This document shows positions 1 through 52,803 of a stretch of 56,554 nt of DNA, piece by piece. Position 1 is the stretch's first letter. Every line of letters starts with the position of its first letter. This DNA is from Nitrospirota bacterium (lineage in GTDB: Bacteria > Nitrospirota > Thermodesulfovibrionia > UBA6902 > DSMQ01). Under the pieces are notes generated by a model that saw only the letters and a program-made list of their open reading frames with translations, searched no databases and was not told the DNA's origin. The DNA is taken from assembly GCA_016212185.1 (NCBI GenBank), contig JACRGX010000023.1:1-56554 (forward strand), read 5' to 3'. A program made the position numbers and the translations under genes.

Positions 1-69
1 AGAGGCAGGGCGCTGAGGAAATTGCAGGAGTATTTACTGCAAACCACAGAGGGCACAGAGAGGGAATAG
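1..69 (+). CDS. possible 3' end of a gene cut by the window edge
   Basis: Frame 1 is open from the first base to a TAG at 67-69 and gives a charged 22-residue tail. A second frame is also open for longer, running into dispersed repeats, so the frame choice is uncertain. The tail runs into a CACAGAG-type intergenic repeat at about 43-62, which suggests the real coding end lies here or slightly upstream. No family can be assigned from so few residues. Confidence 0.25.
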   Translation, partial: RGRALRKLQEYLLQTTEGTERE

Positions 70-22100: not shown

Positions 22101-22172
22101 CTGTCATTCCGGCTTGACACGGAATCCAGATTTTTATGTCTTCTGGATTCCTGCTTTCGCAGGAATGACAGC
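22101..22172. repeat. dispersed TCATTCC/GGAATGACA repeat in the nuoI-nuoJ spacer
   Basis: TCATTCCGGCTTGACACGGA with its arm, then CTGGATTCCTGCTTTCGCAG and GAATGACAGC. The second half, GGATTCCTGCTTTCGCAGGA, occurs identically at 31301-31320 before mdh. Confidence 0.6.
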
Positions 22173-25124: not shown

Positions 25125-25332
25125 GAGGAATAACCACAGAGGGCACAGAAAAAAACAAAACTGAATTTAGCCACAGATTACACAGATTAACACAGAAAGT
25201 CTCCCCTCCCTTGACGGGAGGGGATGAAGGGGAGGGTGAAAATAGCTTTTTAAACACCCCCACCCTCTCCCGTCAAGGGGGAGGGAACATAAGGTATTTC
25301 TCTCCCATCAAGGGGGAGTATATTGAAAGAAA
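25125..25332. repeat. composite repeat cluster in the nuoL-nuoM spacer
   Basis: First a CCACAGAGGGCACAGAA unit, then a stretch (25157-25195) nearly identical to 33408-33446, with words TGAATTTAGCCACAGATTAC and ACAGATTAACACAG. A GC-rich fold-back follows: CTCCCCTCCCTTGACGGGAG with GGGGAGGGTG, answered by CACCCTCTCCCGTCAAGGGG and again by CTCCCATCAAGGGGGAG. It can form a strong hairpin within the operon. Confidence 0.6.
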
Positions 25333-31228: not shown

Positions 31229-31298
31229 GAGTTTTCCCCAAAACCCTCTTGTTAATAATTTCTCCCTTAGGCTATAATTCTTAACTATTTAACGGTGT

Positions 31299-31326
31299 CT
31301 GGATTCCTGCTTTCGCAGGAATGACA
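31299..31326. repeat. dispersed GGATTCC/GGAATGACA hairpin before mdh
   Basis: GGATTCCTGCTTTCGCAGGA followed by ATGACA; identical core to the second half of 22101-22172. It ends only five bases before the mdh ORF. Confidence 0.6.
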
Positions 31327-32499: not shown

Positions 32500-33225
32500 A
32501 TGAATAAAGAACTTGAACAAACACTCGTATTAATTAAACCGGATGCTTTGAAGAATTCATTGACCGGATATGTGCTTTCACAGCTTTCTGAATTCCATTC
32601 AGGCTTATGCTTTTCCGGCACCAAGATAGTCCACGTTTCAAAGATGCTTGCCGAGGAGCATTATTCGGAGCACCGCGGGAAGTTATTCTTTCCTTCGCTC
32701 ATTGAATATATCATGGGACAGCTTCATTATCCCGGCAAACCTGAAAGGCAAAGGGTCATTGCAATTGTCTATCAGGGACTAAACGCAGTGGGGAAGATAC
32801 GCGATATTGCAGGTCCCACAAATCCGCATCTTGCACGGGAACAGAAGCCCGGATGTATCCGCTCGCTCGGGACTGTCGTGCCGCTGTTGAATGACAAGGG
32901 AGAGAAAATTGGCGAACGTATGGATAATCTGATTCATGCTTCTGCGACAATAGAAGAGGCTGAGCGCGAAATCAAGCTCTGGTTCAAACCAAACGACATC
33001 CCTACCTCCATGCGCATATACACAACACGGCAGAGCGAGGAATTTTTTTATTTTAAAGACGACAGGGTTCTCAAAACATACGAGCCCGGCAGTGTATGCC
33101 TGCTTGCGCTCGGAAATCTGGCATGGGAATCGGATTTAGACGTGCTCCGGCAGATCAGCAAGGGACAGCAAGCCTCCTGCACTATCCAGACAGTCGCAGC
33201 AAAATATCTTTTGAACGCGGAGTAA
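32500..33225 (+). CDS. nucleoside diphosphate kinase domain protein, extended
   Basis: 241 residues, longer than the usual 140-150 of NDK. TLVLIKPDALKNSLTGYVLS is the nucleotide-binding start, and NLIHASATIEEAEREI holds the equivalent of the catalytic His, though the usual His-Gly-Ser-Asp reads His-Ala-Ser-Ala. An insert lies at about 60-90 and a C-terminal extension of about 80 residues follows. It may be a real kinase or a regulatory NDK-like protein. GAAGGAG precedes the ATG. Its stop lies inside a 52-bp palindrome. Confidence 0.75.
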   Translation: MNKELEQTLVLIKPDALKNSLTGYVLSQLSEFHSGLCFSGTKIVHVSKMLAEEHYSEHRGKLFFPSLIEYIMGQLHYPGKPERQRVIAIVYQGLNAVGKIRDIAGPTNPHLAREQKPGCIRSLGTVVPLLNDKGEKIGERMDNLIHASATIEEAEREIKLWFKPNDIPTSMRIYTTRQSEEFFYFKDDRVLKTYEPGSVCLLALGNLAWESDLDVLRQISKGQQASCTIQTVAAKYLLNAE

Positions 33226-33270
33226 AAGCAAGCACGGCAGACAATTGTCTGCCGTGCTTGCTTTTACTCC
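33219..33270. repeat. 52-bp perfect palindrome over the stop codon of the NDK gene
   Basis: Each 26-base arm contains GGAGTAAAAGCAAGCACGGC and CAGACAATT from the outside in, with the centre between 33244 and 33245 and no mismatch. The arm includes the TAA stop codon. Possible roles are a strong RNA hairpin or a recently formed quasi-palindrome correction product. Confidence 0.85.
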
Positions 33271-33354: not shown

Positions 33355-33493
33355 TTTGAATTAACACAAACACTGAAATTAACCACTGAGAACTCAGAGA
33401 AAAATAAAACTGAATTTAGCCACAGATTACACAAATTAACACAGATTTTTCAAAAATTTTTTTTAATCTGTATCTTCTGCCGACTCTGTGCCC

Positions 33494-33513
33494 CCTGCCT
33501 GCCGGCAGGCAGG
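33494..33513. mobile_element. 20-bp mobile palindrome, insertion in CACAGAG repeat
   Basis: CCTGCCTGCCGGCAGGCAGG. It sits exactly between CTCTGTGCCC (33484-33493) and TCTGTGG (33514-33520). The uninterrupted form (CTCTGTGCCCTCTGTGGT, as complement) occurs at 43-60 and 25133-25149. Thus the palindrome appears as a clean 20-base insertion. Confidence 0.7.
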
Positions 33514-33537
33514 TCTGTGGTTTAAAAAAGGAGAAAC

Positions 33538-35112
33538 ATGTACAAAAGATTTTACAATTTCAATCTCTCGGACGAGGTGCTTAACGCCGTCTCTGAGATG
33601 GGCTTTGAACAGCCCACACCCATACAAGAAATCGCAATTCCTCCTGCCATGGAGGGGCTTGACATAATCGGTCAGGCGCAGACTGGCACAGGGAAGACTG
33701 CCGCATTCGGCATCCCGCTGATTGAAAAAGGCAGAAGAGGCAAGACCCCGTATGCAATTGTCCTTGCGCCTACGCGCGAGCTTGCGGTGCAGGTAGCGCA
33801 GGAGCTGAACAGGCTCGGCAAAAACAAGGGCATAGTAACAGTCCCCATTTACGGAGGACAATCCATTGACAGGCAGATACGCTCGCTTAAAAAAGGGGTT
33901 GATATTGTCGCCGGCACGCCCGGACGCGTGATGGACCACATGCAGAGAAAGACGCTCAGCCTTAAAAATATCAGCTTTTTAGTCCTTGACGAAGCGGATG
34001 AAATGCTCAATATGGGCTTTATTGAAGACATTAAGTTCATTTTAAAGGAAATCCCCGCAGAGCGCCAGACCATGCTTTTTTCAGCGACCATGCCTAAGGA
34101 GATTGTAAACATAGCCGCCAGATACATGCGGAATCCCAAAAAGGTCGCCGTAGATGCAAAGAGCATGATTGTTACGAAAATTAATCAGGTGTTTTACGAA
34201 GTCAGGCACGATAACAAGATAACGGCGCTCACAAGACTGCTTGATGTTGAAGAACCTTCTCTTACGCTCGTCTTCTGCCATACCAAAAATGAAGTGGATG
34301 AGGTATCGGGCAAGCTCCAGCAGATGGGATATTCCGCAGGCGCGATACACGGAGATTTTACCCAGTCTCACAGGGATGAGATGATGTATAAATTCAAAAA
34401 AGGTGATATTGACGTGCTTGTCGCCACAGACGTGGCCGCAAGGGGTCTGGATATCCCAGACGTTTCACATGTAATTAACTACAGCATCCCGCAAAACCCG
34501 GACAGCTACATTCACCGCATAGGACGTACAGGAAGGATGGGCAAATCCGGCATTGCAATCACATTCGTCACGCCGAGAGAGCTCAGGCAGTTAAGGCTCA
34601 TAGAGCTTTCCGCAAAGACAAAGATTAAAAAAGCGAAACTGCCCACGATTGCCGACGTCAAAAAGGCGCGCGAGCAGGAGGTAATCAATGAGATTGACAA
34701 TGTAATTGAAAATGCAAAACACTCGGGATTTTTGAATTTGACGGATGAGCTGTCCAAGAAATATCCGCTCCGCGATATAGCCGCATCTGCCCTGAGCCTC
34801 ATTTTTTCAGACATTGAAGACGAGGAGATAGAGGAAATCGGCATGCCTGATTTATCTTCAAAAAATAATTACGCAAGGCTCTTCATGACTATCGGAAGAA
34901 CAGACCGGGTAAAGGTCGGCGACATTGTCAGGTCTATTGCATCTGCCGCAGGCATCCCGGGAGAAAAAATCGGGAACATCGCTATTTTTGACAAATTCAC
35001 TTTTGTGGAAGTGCCTCACAACCTCGCCTCAAGGGTAATAGACGCCGTTGATAATGCCGTTATCAACGGCAGGAAGATACGGATCCAGCTTGCAAAGGCA
35101 AAAAAGCGGTGA
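33538..35112 (+). CDS. DEAD-box RNA helicase (DeaD/CshA-like)
   Basis: 524 residues. Q motif FEQPTPIQEIAIP, motif I AQTGTGKT, Ia PTRELAVQV, GG, TPGRV, II VLDEADEML, III SAT, IV VFCHTKNEVD, V DVAARGLDIPDVSHVI and VI HRIGRTGRMG. Residues about 445-520 form a DbpA-type RNA-binding domain (RLFMTIGRTDRVKVGDIVRS). It unwinds structured RNA, probably in ribosome assembly or decay. GGAG is well placed before the ATG. An AT-rich hairpin follows at 35161-35186. Confidence 0.9.
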   Translation: MYKRFYNFNLSDEVLNAVSEMGFEQPTPIQEIAIPPAMEGLDIIGQAQTGTGKTAAFGIPLIEKGRRGKTPYAIVLAPTRELAVQVAQELNRLGKNKGIVTVPIYGGQSIDRQIRSLKKGVDIVAGTPGRVMDHMQRKTLSLKNISFLVLDEADEMLNMGFIEDIKFILKEIPAERQTMLFSATMPKEIVNIAARYMRNPKKVAVDAKSMIVTKINQVFYEVRHDNKITALTRLLDVEEPSLTLVFCHTKNEVDEVSGKLQQMGYSAGAIHGDFTQSHRDEMMYKFKKGDIDVLVATDVAARGLDIPDVSHVINYSIPQNPDSYIHRIGRTGRMGKSGIAITFVTPRELRQLRLIELSAKTKIKKAKLPTIADVKKAREQEVINEIDNVIENAKHSGFLNLTDELSKKYPLRDIAASALSLIFSDIEDEEIEEIGMPDLSSKNNYARLFMTIGRTDRVKVGDIVRSIASAAGIPGEKIGNIAIFDKFTFVEVPHNLASRVIDAVDNAVINGRKIRIQLAKAKKR

Positions 35113-43963: not shown

Positions 43964-43981
43964 CCTGCCTGCCGGCAGACC
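43964..43981. mobile_element. partial mobile palindrome inside tmRNA
   Basis: CCTGCCTGCCGGCAGACC, matching 15 bases of the 20-bp palindrome at 33494-33513. It lies at the tip of a stem formed by GAATCAG (43952-43958) and CTGATTC (43981-43987), so the insertion lengthens a helix without opening it. Confidence 0.6.
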
Positions 43982-44052
43982 TGATTCTTAAACTTAAATA
44001 AGCAGGATACGCATGTAGACGCTTAGATGTAGTGCTTCCGGACCCGGGTTCA

Positions 44053-48143: not shown

Positions 48144-48159
48144 CCTGCCGGCAGGCAGG
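48144..48159. mobile_element. 16-bp form of the mobile palindrome
   Basis: CCTGCCGGCAGGCAGG between GTGGAATACGC and TCGCTATCCATTT. The related repeat at 52711-52744 reads GGGAATACGC directly followed by TCGTTGTCCATTT, so the palindrome is an insertion here. Confidence 0.65.
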
Positions 48160-52531: not shown

Positions 52532-52803
52532 ATCCGGATCCTCCTGATCATCTTTTTTTGCCCTCTGATGATATTTTACATTACCCTGATTATTATGTCA
52601 GATGGTATTTTTGCTCTAAAAACTTTTTAATTGATCTTCCCTGCGTCAGAGACCGCAGGGAATCTAATGTAAGGAATTTCTTTTTATTACATGCGCTCGC
52701 TAACCCCGCAGCAAGACCACTGGGAATACGCTCGTTGTCCATTTACTTCAGGATAAGTGGAAAAACCCTTGACATTATCGTATCTTTTTGATATTTATAT
52801 GCT
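52532..52803. other. spacer with hairpin, dispersed repeat and pilM promoter
   Basis: No gene is seen. A hairpin TTCCCTGCG/CGCAGGGAA lies at 52637-52662. The GCAAGACCAC-GGAATACGC repeat is at 52711-52744, uninterrupted. The pilM promoter follows. Confidence 0.5.
52769..52797 (+). promoter_or_regulatory. pilMNOPQ promoter, leaderless geometry
   Basis: TTGACA (52769-52774), 17 bases, TATTTA (52792-52797), six bases, then the pilM ATG at 52804. No ribosome site is seen before pilM. Confidence 0.55.

Follow-up and report, generated by a model that had tools for sequence, protein, structure and literature searches.

A 20-bp tagged hairpin that splits dispersed repeats in a Nitrospirota genome and recurs across bacterial phyla and viral contigs

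A perfect 20-bp palindrome, CCTGCCTGCCGGCAGGCAGG, lies at positions 33494..33513 of a 56,554-nucleotide stretch of Nitrospirota DNA (the window), where shuffled sequence predicts 0.00 matches. Is it a chance inverted repeat, a selected site or a very small mobile element? A sequence-only reading of the window had held that the palindrome moves or is copied, since it appeared to interrupt other repeats at two sites and to cap a stem of ssrA at a third. It had proposed a genome-wide count, a comparison of filled and empty sites and a search for a REP-type transposase, and had taken the same arrangement of sites in relatives as evidence against movement.

Repeats split by the palindrome in the window

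The element, which matches exactly and has no strand of its own, sits 25 bp upstream of an ORF (33538-35112) that, from our own reading of its motifs, probably encodes a DEAD-box helicase. It splits a host repeat on the minus strand (33484..33520, CCACAGA/GGGCACAGAG; CTCTGTGCCC/TCTGTGG around position 33494). Window and genome-wide repeat matches identify empty copies of this repeat on the plus strand at 42..60 and 25132..25150, with the intact form AACCACAGAGGGCACAGA at 42-59 and 25132-25149. Across the genome, the intact 17-mer CCACAGAGGGCRCAGAG is found 10 times exactly and 13 times with one mismatch. A second filled copy, at position 6278 of contig C45, carries the identical palindrome at the identical split point. 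The clean split first seen at 33494 is thus confirmed by the intact copies and by this second filled one. The second proposed site also stands: a 16-bp form, CCTGCCGGCAGGCAGG, which lacks one CCTG unit and is likewise unstranded, lies at 48144..48159 inside another repeat, GGAATACG/CTCG, and the empty counterpart GGAATACGCTCG is found on the plus strand at 52723..52734.

The third site does not stand. In an alignment of 27 tmRNAs (the host's own and those of 26 relatives), the ssrA stretch at 43964-43983, read earlier as a partial copy, is homologous and contains no insertion of 16-20 bp; the same-genus relative is identical in this segment and most of the others are close to GCCT-TCTTGCCGGCA. 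We have rejected it as a copy of the element: judged from the alignment, this is ordinary tmRNA sequence and its resemblance to the palindrome is due to chance.

The window holds further repeats. A perfect, loopless 52-bp palindrome, GGAGTAAAAGCAAGCACGGCAGACAATTGTCTGCCGTGCTTGCTTTTACTCC, is present at 33219-33270, 224 bp before the 20-bp element and at the end of an ORF (32500-33225); it may be either a true inverted repeat or an assembly fold-back. A tandem repeat of seven 102-bp units occupies 1418-2329 within an ORF (934-2328). A 29-bp dispersed repeat, TCTGGATTCCTGCTTTCGCAGGAATGACA, is found in identical form at 22142-22170 and 31298-31326, and related repeats elsewhere in the same genome host the palindrome (L005, L012). 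It is often the case that several copies of one host repeat are split at the same point, in the host's own genome (L005, L012) and in genomes G088 (L450, L453, L455) and G007 (L427, L434): such recurrent identical split points indicate either that filled repeats were copied whole or that there is a preferred insertion site within the repeat.

Copy number and anatomy of the hairpin

The genome-wide count bears out the proposal of a dispersed element: in the 2.33-Mb genome of the host, the palindrome is found at 26 places with up to three mismatches, the reversed palindrome of identical composition at none. In relatives and many phyla, too, copy numbers greatly exceed this control; in the order of the host they range from 0 to 62 per genome, with up to two mismatches. 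In the 84,980 GTDB species genomes scanned, at least 116 stretches contain the exact 20-mer; about 0.2 would be expected in 257 Gb at one in 4^20, a figure that ignores composition. Among the listed matches, the carriers belong to, among others, Patescibacteria, Omnitrophota, Bacteroidota, Nitrospirota, Elusimicrobia, WOR-1, Planctomycetes and Verrucomicrobia, and 49 carriers of the exact 20-mer have between 1 and 110 copies each at up to two mismatches. Viral contigs contain 33 stretches with the palindrome and none with the reversed control. Some of these contigs have several copies each (L311, L318, L319 (contig 3300037242_000417), L298, L293), and six copies are found within one 29-kb viral contig; such multi-copy contigs are possible vehicles between hosts. 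A literature search restricted to open-access papers found none that describes the sequence or its peptides, subscription papers being outside its scope, and the two matches that a 12-mer gave appear, judged from their listing, to concern oligonucleotides of no relation to it.

Sequence variants reveal that the structure is off-centre: a CCTG tag (positions 1-4) is followed by a predicted 6-bp stem (5-10 paired with 15-20) that closes a GGYA loop (11-14). The stem is usually CCTGCC/GGCAGG, and it is this commonest stem that makes the tagged hairpin read as a perfect 20-bp palindrome; the tetraloop is GGCA or GGTA and the tag CCTG, occasionally CTTG, with conservation of tag and loop partly built in, because loci were chosen by pattern. 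The variants CCTGCCTGTCGGCAGACAGG, CCTGCCAGCCGGCAGGCTGG and CCTGCCTGACGGCAGTCAGG each have two changed bases that pair only as 5-10 with 15-20, which argues for the off-centre fold and not for the symmetric palindrome, and the stem variants CCTGTC, CCAGCC and CCTGAC each occur with the matching partner. Among the variants listed in genomes, a manual count gave about 26 double complementary against about 6 single changes at the same pairs, and when viral contigs were scanned with positions 7, 9, 16 and 18 unconstrained, 13 of 20 instances of T9 had A16 as well. One change, CTTG...CAAG, fits the full palindrome and not the tagged hairpin, so both folds may matter; as RNA, the commonest form has predicted energies of -11.1 kcal/mol for the tagged hairpin and -13.9 kcal/mol for the full palindrome.

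Most carriers are metagenome bins, which would fit a sequencing or assembly artefact. This explanation has next to no probability: isolate genomes (loci L079, L071, L072 and L111) have 32, 49, 39 and 21 copies, respectively, related genomes have copies in common that carry point mutations, reading frames are preserved, and the stem variants are compensatory.

Insertion sites and genic context

The two flanks of each of 312 distinct sites were joined and searched for elsewhere in all the DNA analysed, with gaps from -4 to +8 allowed. Close empty matches, part of which come from other genomes or from tandem repeats, had a gap of 0 in 31 of 41 cases, and no other single gap value occurred more than twice, indicating that an insertion usually adds exactly 20 bp and neither duplicates nor removes target sequence; clean junctions are exemplified by ATTGCTTCACTTTG/TTCGCAATGACAGC (L117) and TAGCTCAGTTGGTA/GAGCGGTTGGCT (L322). 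Tandem forms of the element are also present, as is the 16-bp form. At most of 122 exact sites there is no target-site duplication; flush repeats of 7-8 bp are in excess at four of them, but look like pre-existing tandem repeats and were discarded as target duplications. Target preference is weak: of the 122 exact sites, few have A and many have T directly after the element, and of 75 oriented copies, 41 are preceded by G and 20 by A. Hairpins were considered as the main insertion target and rejected, as junctions are only weakly enriched in inverted repeats.

Gain and loss are also seen within the genus. Genome G001 lacks the element at three sites of the host genome (L004, L007, L031) and has it in common at two (L008, L042), one of these mutated; at both window sites its entire repeat block is different. 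The arrangement is thus not the same in this relative, and with the copy counts and the filled and empty junctions these data sustain the original claim: on comparison of sequences, mobility of the hairpin is well supported.

Copies are depleted from long ORFs, which contain 19% of them versus 67% of random points. ORF-internal copies keep the reading frame, which an insertion of 20 bp alone would shift; one additional base must therefore be part of these insertions. RecG has a seven-residue insertion at the palindrome in comparison with a solved RecG, a phosphosugar mutase carries an in-frame insertion and a pseudouridine synthase two, and MurC- and Elp3-like proteins, inspected by eye, also have in-frame copies. 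The inserted peptides read LPAGRQ, PACRQAG or CLPAGR.

The depletion from long ORFs, like the presence of the same word in many phyla, would also fit a protein-binding, regulatory or uptake site that arose repeatedly by selection and not by movement. We regard such a site as very improbable, given the clean, exact insertions in other repeats, tRNA-like pieces and conserved proteins and the patchy copy number among close relatives.

In unrelated genomes, the palindrome is found in the D-arm of partial tRNA copies (L459:713-935, L460, L055, L144, L086); at L459, three palindrome-bearing partial copies, spaced 101 bp apart, come after a real tRNA-Arg. Functional tRNAs with an insert were considered and set aside: a complete tRNA fold was found at L315 alone, and the other tRNA-like matches are partial copies.

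Candidate mobilisers and relation to known elements

In its mode of action the palindrome is like a REP, and tagged REPs, known from 8 phyla with the tags GTAG or CGTC (PMC3733652), are the nearest described class. Like these, it falls within 20-40 bp, has one unpaired tetranucleotide tag beside a short, GC-rich, compensatory stem with a short loop, reaches high copy numbers in several phyla and is sometimes found within ORFs (PMC3733652). Unlike these, its tag is CCTG and not a terminal GTAG or CGTC, its loop is GGYA, one identical core is present across many phyla, and no association with a RAYT gene was detected, either flanking or genome-wide. As tag and transposase association differ, we have not filed it in the GTAG/CGTC families, even though the anatomy matches.

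The tag and hairpin anatomy and the clean insertion would be expected of a classical REP, moved by a RAYT transposase (PF01797) that is encoded elsewhere in the genome or was recently lost, and of 40 carriers tested 32 have PF01797 genes, as do 48 of 61 relatives. The host genome itself has six PF01797 genes, but none is near or flanked by copies of the palindrome. Across 47 genomes of the order, the number of PF01797 genes does not correlate with copy number (Spearman rho 0.06, p 0.67): G004 and G006 have 7-8 genes and no copies, and genomes from several phyla with 50, 43, 34, 29, 20, 20 and 19 copies have no PF01797 match. The transposase suggested by the sequence-only reading is therefore not supported as the mobiliser, and we consider a classical REP unlikely.

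Other candidates fared no better. An IS91-type Y2 transposase was rejected, as PF04986 is absent from most carriers tested and does not track copy number. Neither a transposase nor a linked autonomous element was found between paired copies at L094, L116, L121, L154, L293, L298 and L311, and the genes beside copies belong to common families, with no unusual recurrent one. Incompleteness of the bins weakens each single gene absence, but less so all absences jointly.

The lack of an associated gene, the slight excess of junctions within inverted repeats and the occurrence of 16-bp and tandem forms are all compatible with host-driven copying, in which short, hairpin-ended single strands are pasted by template switching during replication or by repair and no dedicated enzyme is required. 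Defined ends, a size of exactly 20 bp at most sites and one identical sequence across many phyla suggest specific recognition instead, and we think host-driven copying quite unlikely.

The IS200/IS605 family inserts without target duplication. The palindrome resembles this family, which is mobilised by TnpA Y1 transposases, in having no target duplication (the gap of 0 described above) and in its hairpin, hairpins being subterminal in IS200/IS605 (PMC6006769). It differs in being only 20 bp long, with a transposase neither inside it nor next to it, and in its weak target preference with a slightly biased left flank, where IS200/IS605 elements have a fixed target tetranucleotide. A third comparison is offered by the Rickettsia palindromic elements, repeats of about 150 bp described from Rickettsia (PMC10969869), which are likewise found in frame within unrelated protein genes; the element described here shares the in-frame insertion and is not a repeat of about 150 bp with a conserved peptide, as it is 20 bp long, adds 6-7 residues and is present in many phyla.

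Our preferred reading is that the palindrome is probably a non-autonomous, REP-like mobile hairpin, likely inserted as single-stranded DNA by a putative enzyme acting in trans. Clean insertion, the tagged hairpin and compensatory stems speak for a folded single strand as the form that is recognised, in the manner of IS200/IS605 elements and REPs; the failure of PF01797 to track copy number, the scarcity of Y2 transposases and the absence of a linked or recurrent gene suggest a single-strand mobiliser that acts in trans. Such an enzyme would insert the folded strand and so add, at new places, exactly one unit of CCTG tag, stem and loop, without duplication or loss of target sequence. Copies lie mostly between genes and in other dispersed repeats, sometimes in frame within genes, and gene transfer, phages included, probably carries the element between phyla. 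More tentatively, one and the same 20-bp hairpin could be mobile across phyla and phages by way of a putative non-RAYT system acting in trans, repeatedly adding in-frame peptides of 6-7 residues.

For identical 20-bp copies to be present in very distant phyla, the mobile system must be uncommonly promiscuous, or else a common host process must accept this hairpin. The element accounts for recurrent LPAGRQ/ACRQAG peptides in proteins of Patescibacteria and others. With copy-rich isolates at hand (for example Agriterribacter, Longitalea and Flavivirga), an exact size and an off-centre hairpin, the movement of the smallest mobile elements becomes directly testable.
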